Positions 7,017-51,509 of a DNA stretch of 54,842 nt are shown piece after piece. A program made the position numbers and the translations under genes. The DNA lies in the IMG/VR virus record IMGVR_UViG_3300035691_000006, positions 1 through 54,842 of that record; one strand, 5' to 3'. Every line of letters starts with the position of its first letter. Position 1 is the stretch's first letter. The notes beneath the pieces were generated by a model that had not been told where the DNA came from, did not search any database, and was given only the letters and a program-made list of their open reading frames with translations. The DNA comes from a virus.

Positions 7017-7877
7017 ATGGCCGGCCTGGACTGGATGGAACTCGACGTGGACTTCCACGACGACCCGAAGATCCGGGCCCTGTGCTCGCGCCTGCGCCAA
7101 CCGCTCGCGGACTCCTACGTCTCCCGGCTCTACGCCTACTGCTACAAGCACGTGCAGGACCGTTTCGACCCCGACGTCGCCCCCGAGACCATCGAGGGCG
7201 CGGCGAACTGGAAGGGGCGGAGAGGGGTCCTATTCGACGCCCTACACGCCGTCGGAGTCCTCGAGCGGGAGGCCGGGAAGGTCGTTGTGCATGGGGTCGC
7301 CGCCCGGCTCGCGCCGCACGTCGCGCGCAAGCTCGGGAACGCCATCCGCCAGAAGCGGCGCAGGGATAAGGTCGCGAAACTAATGGAGGCAGCGGCCGGC
7401 GTCACGGGTGACGTCACGGCGGCCGTCACTAGTGACGTCACGGGTGACGTCACGCCCGCTGTCACACCCCTACACGGACACGGACCAAACACGGACCACG
7501 TCGTTCTTACGAACGACGTCGCGCCCGTCGCTCCGATCCAGCCGCTCGGGGTCCACGTCCAGGGCAACCACCCCGACCTCGTTGCCGCCGTGAAGCGCGC
7601 CGCCGAGGCGGGGGTCGGGGTCGACATCGGGAAGCGGGCCGCGCTCTGGGGCGAAGCCGAGGGGCTAATCAAGATCCTCGGCGCCGACGCCGTGCATGCC
7701 GCGTGGGTCCAGGCCGCGAACAAGCGCGACGGGGATCGCGGCAGTGTCCCGCTCGCCTACCTCGTCCCTGTCGTTCGGTCGCTGGTGAAGCGCGGAACAG
7801 GCCCGCCCGCCCGCACCGCGACCGTCCCTGCCTCGCCGCCAACCGCATTCACCGGAGGAAAGCGTGTCTTCACCTGA
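7017..7877 (+). CDS. Replication initiation / replisome organiser protein
   Basis: 286 residues, starting directly after the methyltransferase stop. N-terminal 100 residues (WMELDVDFHDDPKIRAL, then a winged-helix-like LFDALHAVGVLE) match phage replication proteins that precede a helicase loader; the C-terminal part (LAYLVPVVRSLVKRG) fits too. Residues about 129-152 are a repetitive VTGDVTAAVTSDVTGDVT stretch encoded by a 12-bp-periodic DNA array, so the origin may lie inside the gene as in lambda O. It overlaps the DnaC-like gene by 14 bases. Confidence 0.7.
   Translation: MAGLDWMELDVDFHDDPKIRALCSRLRQPLADSYVSRLYAYCYKHVQDRFDPDVAPETIEGAANWKGRRGVLFDALHAVGVLEREAGKVVVHGVAARLAPHVARKLGNAIRQKRRRDKVAKLMEAAAGVTGDVTAAVTSDVTGDVTPAVTPLHGHGPNTDHVVLTNDVAPVAPIQPLGVHVQGNHPDLVAAVKRAAEAGVGVDIGKRAALWGEAEGLIKILGADAVHAAWVQAANKRDGDRGSVPLAYLVPVVRSLVKRGTGPPARTATVPASPPTAFTGGKRVFT
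7401..7465. repeat. 12-bp iteron-like array, candidate replication origin
   Basis: GTCAC recurs exactly every 12 bases at 7401, 7413, 7425, 7437, 7449 and 7461. Several units read GTCAC-NN-GTGAC, so the array also holds three TGACGTCAC elements (7409, 7433, 7445) and a perfect palindrome GTCACTAGTGAC (7425-7436). It encodes the VTxx repeat of the replication protein. Iterons inside the initiator gene are known from lambdoid phages. Origin function is inferred. Confidence 0.55.
7498..7519. repeat. 9-bp inverted repeat next to the iteron array
   Basis: ACGTCGTTC (7498-7506) pairs perfectly with GAACGACGT (7511-7519) around the loop TTAC. It follows a short run of ACGGAC-type direct repeats at about 7473-7497, 33 bases after the iterons. 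It could be part of the origin or a small hairpin in the message. Confidence 0.4.
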
Positions 7878-8577
7878 GACGTTCAAGCCGTCGTCGATCG
7901 TCGAGCGGATGCGTCGCGCTGCCGAGGAGCACGACCGGCGCATGGCGACCGACCCGAAGTACCGCGCCGATCAGGAGCAGGCGGAGCGGGAGACCCGGGA
8001 GCACGATGCGTGGCTCGCGCGGCTCGAGGCCGACCGCAAGCGCAAGGTGACCGAGGCCCGACGCGAGGCGGATGGCATCCCGCGCCGGCTGTGGTCACTG
8101 ATCGATGACCCGGCGAAGGTCGAGGACACGGCCGCCATCCAAGCCGTCAAGGCGTTCCTCGGAAGCGGGAAGACGTTTCTGGTCGTCGCGGGCGGAGTGG
8201 GGCCCGGCAAGACGGTCGCCGCCGCGTGGGCAGCCGAGTCGCGTCGCGGGATGTTCGTGAAGGCGATCGACCTGACGCGCACCGGGACCTACGACGAGGC
8301 GCGCTGGGATGAACTGCGCCGAGCCACGTTCCTCGCGATCGACGACCTGGGCACCGAGCCGCGCGACGAGAAGGGCTGGGCGGCCGCGAACTTCGAGGCG
8401 CTCCTCGATCACCGCTACGACTGGGAGCTCCCGACGGTGATGACGACCAACCTCGCCTTCGATGCGTTCCGAGCGCGCTACCTGACGGCGGACGGCGGGC
8501 GGCTCAACGATCGATTCCGCGAGGTGGGGGAGTTCGTCGAGATCACGGACCCGTCGCTACGGAAGAGCGGCTCATGA
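7864..8577 (+). CDS. DnaC-like helicase loader ATPase
   Basis: 237 residues from GTG behind GGAGGAAAG. AAA+ ATPase: Walker A GGVGPGKT (110-117), Walker B FLAIDDLG (156-163), sensor 1 in VMTTNL (about 193-198) and an arginine-finger region RLNDRFRE near the end. The charged N-terminal 70 residues would contact helicase or initiator. Paired with the upstream replication protein, it would load the host DnaB helicase at the phage origin, since no phage helicase or polymerase is encoded here. Confidence 0.88.
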   Translation: MSSPETFKPSSIVERMRRAAEEHDRRMATDPKYRADQEQAERETREHDAWLARLEADRKRKVTEARREADGIPRRLWSLIDDPAKVEDTAAIQAVKAFLGSGKTFLVVAGGVGPGKTVAAAWAAESRRGMFVKAIDLTRTGTYDEARWDELRRATFLAIDDLGTEPRDEKGWAAANFEALLDHRYDWELPTVMTTNLAFDAFRARYLTADGGRLNDRFREVGEFVEITDPSLRKSGS

Positions 8578-8801
8578 CCTCGGTCCGCGAAGACCTCGGC
8601 TACCTGCCCCAAGAGCCGAAGTTCCCCAAGCGTCCCCCCGAGGCCCGCTTCGAGGGCGTGAGGGACCTCGGGGACGAGGGCTGGGAAGCGTCGGTCCTGA
8701 AGCCGGACGGGCGCCGGGTGTGGCTCTACGCATCGACGAGGATGGAAGCGATCAACCGCGCCCGGAACTACGCCGCGGCGCTGAACGGAGGGGCGAAGTG
8801 A
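8574..8801 (+). CDS. Small protein of unknown function
   Basis: 75 residues, ATGA overlap. A short beta-type core (EGWEASVLKPDGRRVWLYAS) followed by a helix (MEAINRARNYAAAL). Reads like a small single-domain protein, unassigned. Translationally coupled to the helicase loader. Confidence 0.65.
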   Translation: MTSVREDLGYLPQEPKFPKRPPEARFEGVRDLGDEGWEASVLKPDGRRVWLYASTRMEAINRARNYAAALNGGAK

Positions 8802-9739: not shown

Positions 9740-9795
9740 GCCCCGCCCCCTCCTACGCCGCGGCCCGGTTCGTCGTGCCTAGGAGAACTTCATGA
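9736..9795 (+). CDS. 19-residue coupling micro-ORF
   Basis: GTG at 9736 overlaps the TGA of the membrane protein, and TGA at 9793-9795 overlaps the ATG of the next gene. The product starts VSPAPSYAAARFVVP. It bridges an otherwise uncoded 52-base gap and may serve only to carry ribosomes to the next start. Could be chance. Confidence 0.3.
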   Translation: MSPAPSYAAARFVVPRRTS

Positions 9796-10703
9796 GCGCG
9801 AAGTGCTCGGACGCGGACGTCATCAAGGCCTACGAGGAGACCAAGAACGTCTGGAGGGCCGGCGAGATGCTCGGAATCTCCGGCCAGGGAGTAGCGAGGA
9901 GACTCAAGGGGCTAGGAATCACGGCGACGGGGAACGGCAGGCCTTGGACGGAATCCGACTCCGAGGTGCTGCGCCGGGAGTACCTAATTCACCGAGATGC
10001 GGGCCAGCTCGTGCTGTTGGCGGGCAGGCTCGGACGCACCAGGCACTTCATCTGCCGCCAGGCGCGCGCCCTAGGCCTGACGGACGTCAAGCACGGAAGG
10101 CGCTACGGCGCCGTGTGGAAGTACATGGAGGAACCTGTCGCGGCCGGGATCTTCGCGGCCTTCAAGGCCTCGTCCCTGGGCCTCGGCAAGTTCTGCAAGA
10201 AGCACGGCTACGACGACCTGGGCTTCGCTCGGGCGATGAAGCGGTTCTTTGCCGACGAGTGGGAGCACGTCATCGAAGCCAAGGTCCCCAAACAGTCGAT
10301 GTATCGGGTGGGCCGTGCGTTCGAGTACCGCACCAGGGACTACCTGAAATCGATCGGCTACATCGTGATGCGGTCTCCGGGGTCACGGTCACCCGTGGAT
10401 CTCGTGGCCATCAAGCGCGGAGGTGTGCTGCTCGTTCAGTGCAAGCGCGGCGGAGCTCTGCCTGTCGGTGAGTGGAATGCTCTCTACCGGATGGCGACTT
10501 CCTCGGGCTCTGTTCCCGTGATGGCCCGGATGCCCGAGGCATCGACTCGGGGAATCGAGTTCTTCCTGATGACCGGGGAGAAGAGCGGGTTACGCAAGGC
10601 GCAGCCGATGGTTCCGTTCGACCCAGCAGTGCAGCCGTACCCAGAGCCGGAGGCGTGCAACTGGGTGGACGCGGTTGAGCAGGAGGAGGCGAGGAAGCCA
10701 TGA
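9792..10703 (+). CDS. HTH plus Hjc-type PD-(D/E)xK nuclease
   Basis: 303 residues behind AGGAGAA. Two DNA-binding segments come first: an HTH-like VWRAGEMLGISGQGVARRL (about 20-38) and a Myb/SANT-like block beginning WTESDSEVLRREY (about 52-96). The nuclease core follows: Glu178 in GRAFEYRTRDYL, GYIVMRSPGSRSPVD with Asp203, and LLVQCKRGG with Gln216 and Lys218, the pattern of archaeal Hjc Holliday-junction resolvases. It could be the phage resolvase or a PD-(D/E)xK homing nuclease; the N-terminal DNA-binding part favours site recognition. The surrounding genes are very small, so it stands out. Confidence 0.7.
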   Translation: MSAKCSDADVIKAYEETKNVWRAGEMLGISGQGVARRLKGLGITATGNGRPWTESDSEVLRREYLIHRDAGQLVLLAGRLGRTRHFICRQARALGLTDVKHGRRYGAVWKYMEEPVAAGIFAAFKASSLGLGKFCKKHGYDDLGFARAMKRFFADEWEHVIEAKVPKQSMYRVGRAFEYRTRDYLKSIGYIVMRSPGSRSPVDLVAIKRGGVLLVQCKRGGALPVGEWNALYRMATSSGSVPVMARMPEASTRGIEFFLMTGEKSGLRKAQPMVPFDPAVQPYPEPEACNWVDAVEQEEARKP

Positions 10704-11110
10704 GGGTCTACGTTGCAGGGCGCTGGACGCGCAAGGACGAGGTGCGGTCGGTCCAGCGGATGCTCCGCGAGGCGGGGCACGAGATCACGCACGACTGGAC
10801 GAGGGCGGACGATCCGCCGGCCGGCTGGAGCCAGGAGCGCGTGCGGGGCTACCTCGCGCAGCAGGCGTTCGAGGACTACATGGGCGTTCTCGCCGCGGAG
10901 GCCGTCGTAATCCTCGACGACCCCACGGGCCGTGGCCTCTACGTGGAACTCGGGATCGCCCTCGGCGAGACGGAGCACCCGAAGCGGATCGTGGTCGTGG
11001 GCCCGACGCGCGAGGTCGGGGCCTGCGTCTTCTACTTCCTGCCCAACATCGAGTACGTGAACGCGCCGTCTCAGGCCGTCGCGACGCTCGGCCGTTCGGA
11101 GGCCGCGTGA
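10700..11110 (+). CDS. Nucleoside 2-deoxyribosyltransferase-like protein
   Basis: 136 residues, ATGA overlap. Starts MRVYVAGRWTRKDEVR, has AEAVVILDDPTGRGLYVELGIALG in the middle (Glu of VELG matches the catalytic Glu of the family) and RIVVVGP after it: a Rossmann-like fold shared by deoxyribosyltransferases and TIR-like domains. May handle nucleotides for phage DNA or act on NAD-type substrates. Function unproven. Confidence 0.7.
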   Translation: MRVYVAGRWTRKDEVRSVQRMLREAGHEITHDWTRADDPPAGWSQERVRGYLAQQAFEDYMGVLAAEAVVILDDPTGRGLYVELGIALGETEHPKRIVVVGPTREVGACVFYFLPNIEYVNAPSQAVATLGRSEAA

Positions 11111-11887: not shown

Positions 11888-11955
11888 GCGACCTCGCTTT
11901 CTGGGCGGCCACCGCGGCCGTCTGCGCAGTCGTCTGGGTCGTCGCGGGGATGTAG
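11884..11955 (+). CDS. 23-residue single-pass membrane micro-protein
   Basis: ATG at 11884 overlaps the previous stop. The whole product is MSDLAFWAATAAVCAVVWVVAGM in two parts: a short polar start and one hydrophobic helix. Too short for usual gene finding, but the coupling and the transmembrane character support it. Confidence 0.5.
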   Translation: MSDLAFWAATAAVCAVVWVVAGM

Positions 11956-12038
11956 GGCGCCAGCAGTGGGGCGCAGGGCGTGGCGGCGTCCGGGGGCTAT
12001 CACGGCCCCGGCGCCGAAAGGAGCGAAAGGGAGGGCAC

Positions 12039-12378: not shown

Positions 12379-12420
12379 ATGCAACGGACCCCGGGACGCC
12401 CTTTAGTCTGCGGGTCGTGA
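12379..12420 (+). other. 13-codon ORF overlapping the terminase start
   Basis: ATG at 12379 opens a 13-residue frame whose TGA (12418-12420) overlaps the GTG of the terminase gene, which itself lacks a ribosome binding site. Matches the stop-start pattern seen elsewhere in the genome, but chance is quite possible. Confidence 0.25.
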
Positions 12421-12992
12421 CGGACCTTAGCAACGGGCGACCGGCACAGGACGACGACGGACTGACCCCGCGCCAGCGGGCGTTCATCGTTGAATTTCTC
12501 AAGGATCGCAACGGAACCCAGGCGGCAATCCGCGCCGGGTTCGCCCCCAAGAGCGCTGCGGTCGCTGCATCGCGTTTGCTGAGACACGCTAAGGTCAAGG
12601 CCTTCCTCGCGGCTCGGGTTGCTAAGGTCGAGCGCGAAGCGATGGAAGTGAGCGCCGAGCGGACCCTCCTCGAGCTCGCGCGCCTCGCCTACGTCGACCC
12701 CGGCCAGTTCTATGACGAGAAGGGCCACCTTCGGCTCGTCCACGACATTCCCGAGGACGCCCGCAGGGCGCTTCACGGGATGGAGACCTTCGAAGAATTC
12801 GAGGGCTTCGGTGAGGAGCGCACGAAGGCCGGCGACGTCCGCAAGGTGCGTTGGCACGACAAGCGCGCCGCCCTCGCCGACCTCGCCAAGATCCAGGGGC
12901 TCTTGCGCGAGAAGGTCGAGGTCGGGGGCCCGAACGGCGGCCCTTTGGTCGTCGAGATTCGCGACCTAGCCAAAGAGCCGGAGGAGTCCTGA
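12417..12992 (+). CDS. terS: Terminase small subunit
   Basis: 191 residues from GTG. The N-terminal HTH region DGLTPRQRAFIVEFLKDRNG, TQAAIRAGF and SAAVAASRLLRHAKVKAFL is the classic Terminase_2 (P22/SPP1-type small subunit) pattern. Helical oligomerisation core and a C-terminal tail (VEIRDLAKE) follow. It recognises the packaging site and hands DNA to the large subunit. The large subunit gene is about 2 kb away, separated by nine small genes, which is unusual since the two are generally adjacent. Confidence 0.9.
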   Translation: MTDLSNGRPAQDDDGLTPRQRAFIVEFLKDRNGTQAAIRAGFAPKSAAVAASRLLRHAKVKAFLAARVAKVEREAMEVSAERTLLELARLAYVDPGQFYDEKGHLRLVHDIPEDARRALHGMETFEEFEGFGEERTKAGDVRKVRWHDKRAALADLAKIQGLLREKVEVGGPNGGPLVVEIRDLAKEPEES

Positions 12993-14772: not shown

Positions 14773-14960
14773 TGTGGTCCCGATCGACCAGGCAGCGCAG
14801 GGCGGCGCTGCGGAGAAAGTTCGGAGCCTTCTCGGGCGTTCAGCGGACGATCTGGTCCCAGTGGCGCACCGTCTCGGTGCCGCGTCGTTTCGGTATGGAT
14901 ACGGCCTGGATTCAGAAGGCCCTGAACCTCGCCTATGAGCGGCTGAAGGCGGGCGCGTGA
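14772..14960 (+). CDS. Small basic protein before terminase large subunit
   Basis: 62 residues, TGATG overlap. Strongly basic N-terminal half (RSTRQRRAALRRKFGAF) and an aromatic C-terminal half. Might bind nucleic acid. No family recognised. Confidence 0.55.
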   Translation: MWSRSTRQRRAALRRKFGAFSGVQRTIWSQWRTVSVPRRFGMDTAWIQKALNLAYERLKAGA

Positions 14961-16438
14961 GTGCGATCCGTGTCCTGCTCACCCTGGTGGTCGCCGTGGC
15001 CGTGACCGGCGGCCGTCCAGCGGCGGCCTCGGTTCGTCTCCCGCACGACTTCTCCCCGCGCTGGTACCAGCGCCCGTTCATGCAGTTCTTCACGGACGGA
15101 GGCTCGGACGGACGGGGAAAGACGGCGGTGGAGGTGATGCACCGCCGCGGCGGCAAGGACCTGATGGGCGCCCACACGGGAGTCATGCTGATGCACCGTC
15201 GGATCGGCGCCTACTGGCATACGTTTCCGACATTCGAGCAAGGACGCAAGGCGATTTGGGAAGGCTTCCGCTCCGACGGCAAGCGGATCATCGACAACGT
15301 GTTCCCGGCCGAGATCGTCAAGCGCCGGGACAACCAGCAGATGATGGTCGAGCTCAAGTGCGGGTCTATCTACCGCATCATGGGCACCGACAAGATCGAG
15401 AACGTCGGCGCCGGCCCGGTCGGCGTGCTGCACAGCGAGTACAGCATCGCGAAGCCGAAGGCGGCGGACATGATCGCCCCGATGCTCCGCGAGAACGACG
15501 GCTGGGAGGCGTATCTCTACACGCCCCGGGGCAACAACCACGGCAAGCGGCTGTTCGACCGCATGAAGGTCGCCGCGGCGCAGAACCCACGCCACAACTT
15601 CTGCGAGCTTCGGACGCTCTACGACACCCGGGCCTACGATCCGGAGCAGACGTTCTCCAAGGAGCGCGAGCGCGGACGTCCCGAGGCGATCATCCGGCAG
15701 GAGTACCTCTGCGACTGGACCGCCGCGAACGTCGGTGCCGTCTACGGAGACCTGATCGAGGCGATCGAGAAGTCGGGCCGGGTGTGCGACTTCGAGCCGG
15801 ACAAGGCGCGCGCCTTCACGACCTGGGACTTAGGCGGAGCCGGCGCCCGAGGGGACGCCACCTGCTTCTGGCTCTGGGCCGCGCGGGAGGACGGGGCGGA
15901 CTTCCTCGACTACTGCGAGGGGCAGGGGAAGACCCTCGACTACTACATGGACGAGGCGGACCGCCGCGCCTCCCTGGCCGGCGTCCGGGTCGTCAAGCAC
16001 GAGTTCCCCCACGACGCCCGAGCGAAGCACCTCACGGGCGCATCGGTCATCGAGCAGGCCATCGCGCGGTGGGGCGTGGAGCGCGTCGGAATCTACCCCG
16101 AGGACTCGTTCCTGAACGGGATCCAGGCGCTCCGGTGGCTACTCCAGCGCAACGTTCGGTTCCACCCTCGCTGCCAGGAGGGGCTCGAGGCGCTCAAGGC
16201 CTACCACTACGAGTGGGACGAGGACCGCAAGACGTTCTCGAACCAGCCGGTCCACGACTGGAGTTCGCACCCGTCCGACGCGGCCCGCGGCGTTGCCCTC
16301 GTCGCTCGCCGGGCCGAGGAATCCACCCGCGTCGAGAAGCCGGACGAGCGCCCCGTCGCAACCGAGGCTGACGGTGCCTTCACACTGGACGACCTATGGC
16401 GTGCTCGCGACAACTCGCGCCGCTGGAACCGGGACTGA
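14957..16438 (+). CDS. terL: Terminase large subunit
   Basis: 493 residues from GTG 14957 (GTGA overlap). The ATPase has the Walker A variant HRRGGKD (about 64-70) used by many phage terminases, and SEYS (about 160-163) in the coupling region. The nuclease half begins TTWDLGGAGARGDATCFWLW with its catalytic Asp, has FPHDARAKH and WSSHPSDAARG. Odd: the first 25 residues look like a signal peptide (VLLTLVVAVAVTG, then PAAAS), so an internal GTG near codon 17 may be the real start. It cuts and pumps DNA into the prohead. Confidence 0.92.
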   Translation: MSAIRVLLTLVVAVAVTGGRPAAASVRLPHDFSPRWYQRPFMQFFTDGGSDGRGKTAVEVMHRRGGKDLMGAHTGVMLMHRRIGAYWHTFPTFEQGRKAIWEGFRSDGKRIIDNVFPAEIVKRRDNQQMMVELKCGSIYRIMGTDKIENVGAGPVGVLHSEYSIAKPKAADMIAPMLRENDGWEAYLYTPRGNNHGKRLFDRMKVAAAQNPRHNFCELRTLYDTRAYDPEQTFSKERERGRPEAIIRQEYLCDWTAANVGAVYGDLIEAIEKSGRVCDFEPDKARAFTTWDLGGAGARGDATCFWLWAAREDGADFLDYCEGQGKTLDYYMDEADRRASLAGVRVVKHEFPHDARAKHLTGASVIEQAIARWGVERVGIYPEDSFLNGIQALRWLLQRNVRFHPRCQEGLEALKAYHYEWDEDRKTFSNQPVHDWSSHPSDAARGVALVARRAEESTRVEKPDERPVATEADGAFTLDDLWRARDNSRRWNRD

Positions 16439-19411: not shown

Positions 19412-19933
19412 ATGGGCCTACCACTCAGACTTGCCAAGAGCAGCCGCGTCCTCAACGAGACGCCACAGCAGCGAGCCCGTCGGCTTCAGCAGTGCCGAGA
19501 GCGTTACGAGCGCAACCGCGAGATGGCCAAGGCCGCGGCCAAGGCGTGGCGCGCCAAGAACCATGAGCGTGCGCGCGAGAGTTCAAGGGAGTGGAGGGAG
19601 GCGCACCCGGAGCGCGTCAGGGAACTGGGCCGCGAGTGGCGGAAGGACAACATCGAGCGCATCAAAAAGATCGAGCGCGCCAAGACTCTGGCGAAGTACG
19701 GCATCACCACCGCTCGCTTCGCCGCAATGCTGGCCGATCAGGGCGGAAAGTGCGCCATCTGCGGAACTTCCGAGCCCGGCGGGCGCGGGGCCTTCCATGT
19801 CGATCACTGCCACGTCACCGGCGTCGTTCGCGGCCTGCTCTGCCAGGGATGCAACGCGCGCCTGGGTTGGTTCGAGAAGTACCAGTTGGAAACCATGAAC
19901 TATCTGATGGCGAGTGCCCAGGAGGTCGCATGA
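19412..19933 (+). CDS. HNH endonuclease, endonuclease VII type
   Basis: 173 residues. The basic N-terminal half is a highly charged helix with repeated ERxREL-like text. The C-terminal half is the endonuclease VII fold: [40 protein letters not shown] and [10 protein letters not shown], with a four-Cys zinc site and catalytic His. Such genes either resolve branched DNA or are mobile homing nucleases. Its place inside a sugar cassette suggests mobility. Confidence 0.88.
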
Positions 19934-51015: not shown

Positions 51016-51509
51016 TAGCCGACCCTCCGGTGCTTCGTGGGGGCCGCCTCGGAGAGGGCCATCCGGTGCTCGATCTCCCGGAGCGCATCCCCGAAGAAGT
51101 TGAGGATCGCCCACGCCTTCGCGTCCCGGAACGTCTGCGGCTCGTTCTTCGCCCACCCCCGGTGATGGCAGTCGGCGCAGATCGCGGCGGTGTTCTCGGA
51201 GGACTCCTTGTGCGTCCGGTCGCCGGCACCGAAAATGTGATGCCACTCGAGGACGAACCCCTCGCGGTGGCAGAACTCGCAGCGGCCATCGGCCCGCTTC
51301 ATCACCTCGGCGCGGATCTCGGCGGCGCGCTTGTTCCTCTCCTCCTTGCGCTGCTCCTTGGTCAGTCCGGGCGCCTCGGGCTTGGGGATCGCCTTGGCCT
51401 TGGACTTGCGGATCTCGGCCTCCAGGGAGGCAATGGCGGCGGCAAGCTCGACGAACCCCTCGCGCTGTTTGCGCTTCAAGGCGCGGAGGGCGGTGGTGGA
51501 GAGGGTCAC
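51015..51509 (-). CDS. HNH nuclease in the recombination operon
   Basis: 164 residues, ATGA overlap with the Bet gene. Helical basic N-terminal half (LEAEIRKSKAKAIPKP), then the HNH core: CEFCHREGFVLEWHHIFG, AICADCHHRGW, with four zinc Cys and the paired His. It may supply the nuclease function that the Gam-Bet pair lacks, or be an independent nuclease. Not antisense or promoter-bearing, so less likely a homing gene. Confidence 0.82.
   Translation of the reverse strand: MTLSTTALRALKRKQREGFVELAAAIASLEAEIRKSKAKAIPKPEAPGLTKEQRKEERNKRAAEIRAEVMKRADGRCEFCHREGFVLEWHHIFGAGDRTHKESSENTAAICADCHHRGWAKNEPQTFRDAKAWAILNFFGDALREIEHRMALSEAAPTKHRRVG

Follow-up and report, generated by a model that had tools for sequence, protein, structure and literature searches.

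The gene at positions 9792..10703 (+ strand) of the viral DNA that we analysed, an entire IMG/VR record 54,842 bases in length (the window), encodes a 303-aa protein from an ATG start. On balance, we favor the reading that the phage has in this protein its branch-specific (Holliday junction type) endonuclease, and that the protein alternates with a RusA-type resolvase at the same place in the genome while a C-terminal tail is retained. The protein is laid out as a predicted helix-turn-helix (HTH) unit, a predicted SANT-like unit, a predicted third trihelix, an Hjc-type nuclease domain and the tail, and is probably a resolvase, i.e., a known enzyme type with a new architecture. Its gene lies after a DnaC-like helicase loader gene of the upstream replication region (7864..8577, +; phrog_50, 2.1e-21) and before the genes for the terminase small subunit (12417..12992, +; phrog_51, 3.6e-29) and large subunit (14957..16438, +). 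It is preceded by a Shine-Dalgarno-like AGGAG (9781..9785, +), and its stop codon overlaps the ATG of the next gene downstream, which is nucleoside deoxyribosyltransferase-like (10700..11110, +), so that it is tightly packed with its neighbors.

The nuclease domain comprises residues 170-268 (10299..10595, +), as delimited using Pfam, alignment, AlphaFold, Foldseek and a second structure aligner. The Pfam family Hjc (PF01870) matched residues 182-245 of the protein with 24.7 bits (cut-off 21.1, E = 2.3e-5), and when all six frames of the record were searched this was the sole Hjc match (E = 2.1e-7). We also obtained a match to PHROG 6591, "Holliday junction resolvase" (2.3e-4), and a PDDEXK_5 match below that family's own cut-off. 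The preliminary description of this DNA had singled out E178, D203, QCK (216-218) and GSRSPVD (197-203) as matching Hjc resolvases, and both the positions and the resemblance were borne out: E178 (codon 10323-10325), D203 (10398-10400), Q216 (10437-10439) and K218 (10443-10445; all +) were present in 20 of the 20 sequences in our alignment A4, which held the window protein and 19 others with repeats left out, and so are not missing from homologues. Y171, G174, G189, R194 and S198 were likewise invariant. As given in PMC8805305, motifs I-III of the Hjc/Mrr group consist of a glutamate in helix 1, hD and hhh(E/D/Q)hK; the four catalytic residues fit these motifs, the glutamine in motif III agreeing with (E/D/Q)hK.

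A full-length AlphaFold model built with A4 (mean pLDDT 75.4, pTM 0.45) gave an Hjc-type nuclease domain with separate helical units in front of it. The pLDDT was about 92-97 in the nuclease and 60 or below in the third trihelix and the linkers, and the relative placement of the predicted units in the model is unreliable. Foldseek placed archaeal junction-resolving enzymes (Hjc and its relatives) at ranks 1-24, with an E-value of 4.4e-5 for 1gef, and the second structure aligner superimposed model residues 170-282 on 1gef with Z = 12.8 and an rmsd of 2.6 over 107 residues. The fold match thus begins at about residue 170, and at least two predicted DNA-binding segments lie outside it, which answers the question of whether the N-terminal segments might themselves form part of an Hjc fold. 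With 303 aa and three extra predicted units in front, the protein is not the small single-domain enzyme that is usual for Hjc, although small size does not strictly define that group.

In the N-terminal front (residues 1-168), the HTH unit covers residues 7-40 (9810..9911, +) and is confidently predicted, with helices at 7-17, 20-27 and 31-40, a pLDDT of about 90 for the block and a weak HTH_50 match (E = 0.13). It is followed by a SANT/Myb-like trihelix at residues 54-93 (9951..10070, +), predicted with moderate confidence (helices 54-66, 70-80 and 84-93; pLDDT about 70-79) and resembling the repeats of Listeria phage B054 gp65. When the N-terminal part was used as query, residues 13-101 matched HTH/SANT-repeat proteins such as the latter with 33.7% identity (E = 2e-4). 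The preliminary description had recognized both of these units ahead of the nuclease, and both were predicted by AlphaFold; it had missed the conserved tail as well as the predicted third trihelix at residues 115-161 (10134..10274, +), which has low pLDDT (helices 115-128, 131-137 and 142-161) and lies in a stretch, residues 100-165, with no family match. Pfam returned neither the HTH nor the SANT-like unit above cut-off, its HTH matches all being sub-threshold, and the "SANT" label therefore rests on the model and on the indirect likeness to the Listeria repeat proteins. The front also matched PHROG 323, "transcriptional regulator" (0.0015), and its residues 22-100 (within 9792-10286) matched positions 23-101 of the PHROG 190 profile (E = 0.007), which scored 0.002 in another search. 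Folded alone, the N-terminal part gave a poor model (pLDDT 57.7) that matched nothing in the PDB at E below 0.5, so the front folds rest on the full-length model, whose Foldseek list is filled with nuclease matches and barely probed the front. Taken together, the model, the Listeria repeat likeness and the PHROG 323 and 190 matches suggest that the front may bind DNA.

A search with the terminase large subunit gene as query yielded 28 related loci. In one of these, L014, the gene at the corresponding place encodes a RusA protein (PF05866, 2.3e-25; phrog_140, 2.2e-30); the slot is therefore occupied by RusA and is not an empty site. The RusA domain had no match anywhere in the window record, and only the position and the tail are common to the window gene and a RusA gene. 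The tail, residues 280-303 (10629..10700, +), matches the tail of the L014 RusA protein at 17 of its 24 residues; 11 codons are identical, 6 differ synonymously and 7 non-synonymously, and the DNA is 84% identical over 63 bp (E = 5e-9). The L014 protein extends 11 residues beyond the matched tail. With the tail as a phmmer query against the 5031 frames of L005-L033, L014 scored 2.2e-6 and the next frame 0.55, and the match is limited to this one relative. A motif search of viral contigs recovered L014 again (as L034) and a single internal match in L035, which we rejected as unrelated. Since RusA proteins of named phages match the L014 protein at most over residues 1-118 (best 10 of 147 records), the tail of L014 RusA appears to be an extra piece.

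The tail DNA is one of three islands collinear with L014. The other two lie at 8616-8671, corresponding to L014 20-75 (84.7% DNA identity), and at 11952-12023, corresponding to L014 1761-1830 (87.7%); the tail island itself, at 10629-10690, is 84.1% identical. As the nucleases are unrelated, yet the tail and the collinear flanks are common to both loci, a single exchange in which the 3′ end was retained would be the simplest history. The 73-bp island at 11952-12023 is located upstream of the gene for the terminase small subunit and is possibly a regulatory or recombination site; we considered a structured RNA there and discarded it, as a 101-nt stretch showed no excess folding (z = -0.33). The closest relative by terminase, L005 (70%), carries, between the genes for its helicase loader and its terminase, a small PD-(D/E)xK-like gene that matched phrog_93, "endonuclease" (1.8e-6), and phrog_5702, "Holliday junction resolvase" (5e-4); it had no Pfam match, and its nuclease label comes from PHROGs only. 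Searches for a very close relative phage and for relatives by helicase loader found none, and the downstream gene gave five distant loci.

Alignment-based scans for the nuclease identified stand-alone Hjc-type relatives in 18 distinct viral contigs (the scans gave 6 and 16 loci, and four contigs recur) and 3 genome contigs. All are 80-171 aa long, with at most 52 residues ahead of the domain when counted from the first start codon, and inspection by eye found no front like that of the window protein in any of these contigs. The stand-alone viral proteins of L051-L075, recognizable by the string "NYxRGRAFEYR...RSAGSHSP.D...QCK", are the closest to the nuclease domain by sequence (54% at best, over a short segment) and have the same invariant residues. 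Two of them, in L067 and L072, adjoin DNA polymerase and primase-helicase genes. We found no homologue covering the whole fusion in phages, viral contigs, genome contigs or plasmids (the last gave partial matches only), nor in viral contigs searched with the N-terminal part alone. Hits in a Sphingobium plasmid and in faecal phages were rejected as fusion relatives because they look like multi-HTH proteins and have no nuclease part matching that of the window, and Enterococcus hits annotated "endonuclease" and "transcriptional regulator" proved to be stand-alone HTH/Myb-like proteins. Among the open-access papers listed for resolvases, DNA-binding fusions and homing enzymes, no title or opening of an abstract mentioned an Hjc fused to HTH/SANT units.

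Among known systems, archaeal Hjc and Hjc_15-6 of Thermus phage Tth15-6, an Hjc-type enzyme that is likewise phage-encoded, resemble the window protein in nuclease fold and catalytic motif set. They differ in length, in that solved Hjc chains have about 95-130 residues and the window protein adds a 168-residue front and the C-terminal tail, and in motif III, which is E-x-K in Hjc_15-6 and the Hjc examples quoted in PMC8805305 and Q-x-K in the window. The preliminary description had held that resolvases lack such DNA-binding parts, a generalization contradicted by SPP1 G44P. As described in PMC3485210, this RusA-family enzyme of a phage, whose resolvase activity has been tested, carries at its N-terminus an additional 13 kDa to which that paper assigns no role, forms a dimer, binds without sequence specificity and cuts junctions. 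Like the window protein, it has an added region N-terminal to the nuclease, but its nuclease is of RusA type; N-terminal additions as such do not exclude resolvase function. The phage "Holliday junction resolvases" of PHROG 190/DUF1064 also invite comparison. The N-terminal part of the PHROG 190 profile, which matches the window front, matches HTH/SANT-like proteins too, whereas the nuclease core at profile positions 155-297 is of DUF1064 type and unlike that of the window. Judged from these profile matches, other phage resolvases (some PHROG 190 members) may carry similar fronts. The five annotated PHROG 190/DUF1064 members that we inspected were stand-alone proteins of 110-148 aa, in Lactococcus phages 1 of 10 matched PHROG 190 (in the core only), and a search for full-length members having an HTH/SANT front found none. 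Holliday junction resolvase domains are over-represented among mosaic phage proteins, according to PMC10684548.

The preliminary description had offered two identities, a homing nuclease or a new type of resolvase, and the resolvase half has more in its favor, given that the gene takes the place of RusA in L014 and shares the tail of that protein. Homing would mean that a free-standing PD-(D/E)xK endonuclease reads a long specific site through its front units, cuts with its Hjc-type domain and spreads to phages without the gene, which we regard as unlikely. It draws on the closeness of the nuclease fold to that of the homing enzyme I-Ssp6803I (2ost, Z = 10.2, tied with lower-ranked Hjc entries at 10.4), although a common fold is by itself no demonstration of function, and the window protein falls below the cut-off of PF11645, which we take to be the I-Ssp6803I family (11.6 bits against 26.1). 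The window also differs from I-Ssp6803I in that we saw no intron or insertion site at its locus. Two BFVD entries, A7KV39, presumably the homing enzyme I-Bth0305I, and A0A172Q0C1, gave low-TM alignments of about 270-280 columns that take in the front. Phage homing enzymes are described in PMC3943268 as DNA-binding regions tethered to a nuclease, and F-CphI, in PMC6083498, is a precedent for a resolvase-type motif in a homing enzyme. By analogy with the endonuclease VII proteins covered in that same paper, a DNA-binding front followed by a C-terminal nuclease would be the order of homing enzymes and not of resolvases. Against homing, the L014 slot holds another resolvase gene with the same tail, the gene has a good ribosome site in its tight packing, and the two stand-alone relatives noted above sit among replication genes. 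In our judgment, slot and tail outweigh the resemblance of a back-end nuclease to the homing layout.

The window also encodes a second candidate junction nuclease, an endonuclease VII homologue (19412..19933, +; PF02945, 1.2e-23; phrog_2914, 2.1e-28), so the phage may not need the Hjc fusion as a resolvase. This homologue could be the resolvase and the fusion could have another job, for example as a nickase at an origin or packaging site, a site-bound role that front DNA-binding units would suit; despite the strong endonuclease VII match, we think this quite improbable. The PF02945 match lies at the C-terminal end of the protein (about residues 91-165 of 173), a position that PMC6083498 assigns to the homing and restriction clade, resolvases having the motif at the N-terminus, and the gene lies beyond the terminase, beside an epimerase-like gene. 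Least probable of all, in our estimate, is an Mrr-like enzyme that is guided by the front domains and cleaves host or competing DNA. Such an enzyme would account for the Mrr_cat match (PF04471, E = 0.0051) and for the QCKR string, which we take to be typical of the Mrr group, but the match scored 17.4 bits against a cut-off of 21 while Hjc exceeded its own, and the gene sits in a resolvase slot.

If the protein is a resolvase, its nuclease would act as a dimer and nick two strands at crossed or branched DNA arising from replication and recombination, which would let concatemers be packaged. The HTH and SANT-like units might grip the arms of the duplex or direct the enzyme to particular phage DNA, and the tail could be a peptide that docks to a phage partner or the homologous stretch by which the two nuclease genes were swapped. 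A more specific scheme, which we consider doubtful, is that of a site-directed resolvase (or an Hjc-based phage homing enzyme): the Hjc-type nuclease would be steered by the HTH, SANT-like and third units to chosen phage sequences, and the tail would be exchangeable between unrelated resolvases and would perhaps dock to the packaging machinery. Phages use resolvases of several unrelated folds, and here a putative exchange between Hjc and RusA is visible at base level, in that the greater part of a 24-codon tail, together with collinear flanks, is common to the fusion and RusA. Should the tail be a docking peptide, it would show how a partner, for instance the packaging motor, is coupled to phage resolvases; should the front units confer site preference, the protein would show a structure-reading enzyme becoming a sequence-reading one, a step between resolvases and homing enzymes.

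We surveyed junction nucleases in 30 records, namely the window, 28 IMG/VR records and Myxococcus phage Mx9; as many of these are fragments, absences of nuclease families mean little. RuvC and Pfam VRR_NUC were found in 0 of the 30. RusA was found in 6 (24 without). In L008, L014, L016 and L022 it shares the strand of the terminase and lies upstream of it by 0.7-3.6 kb; in G019 it is about 10 kb upstream, and in G013 elsewhere on the same strand (these positions were worked out by hand). Two records had Hjc matches, with only the window over the cut-off, and endonuclease VII was present in 2 of the 30 including the window (28 without). We count the closeness of RusA to the terminase in four records in favor of the preferred reading, and the scarcity of RusA, endonuclease VII, RuvC and VRR_NUC across the 30, like the confinement of the tail match to one relative, against it. 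The window homologue has a charged N-terminal part and its gene directly precedes the epimerase-like gene; an epimerase-like ORF also occurs in L014, where endonuclease VII gave no match. Elsewhere in the window, at 51120-51350 on the - strand, another endonuclease VII-like match is weak, its 14.9 bits falling short of the cut-off, and L010 encodes a short endonuclease VII-type protein in its replication region (L010:3886-4209), with the motif at residues 9-93 of 107.
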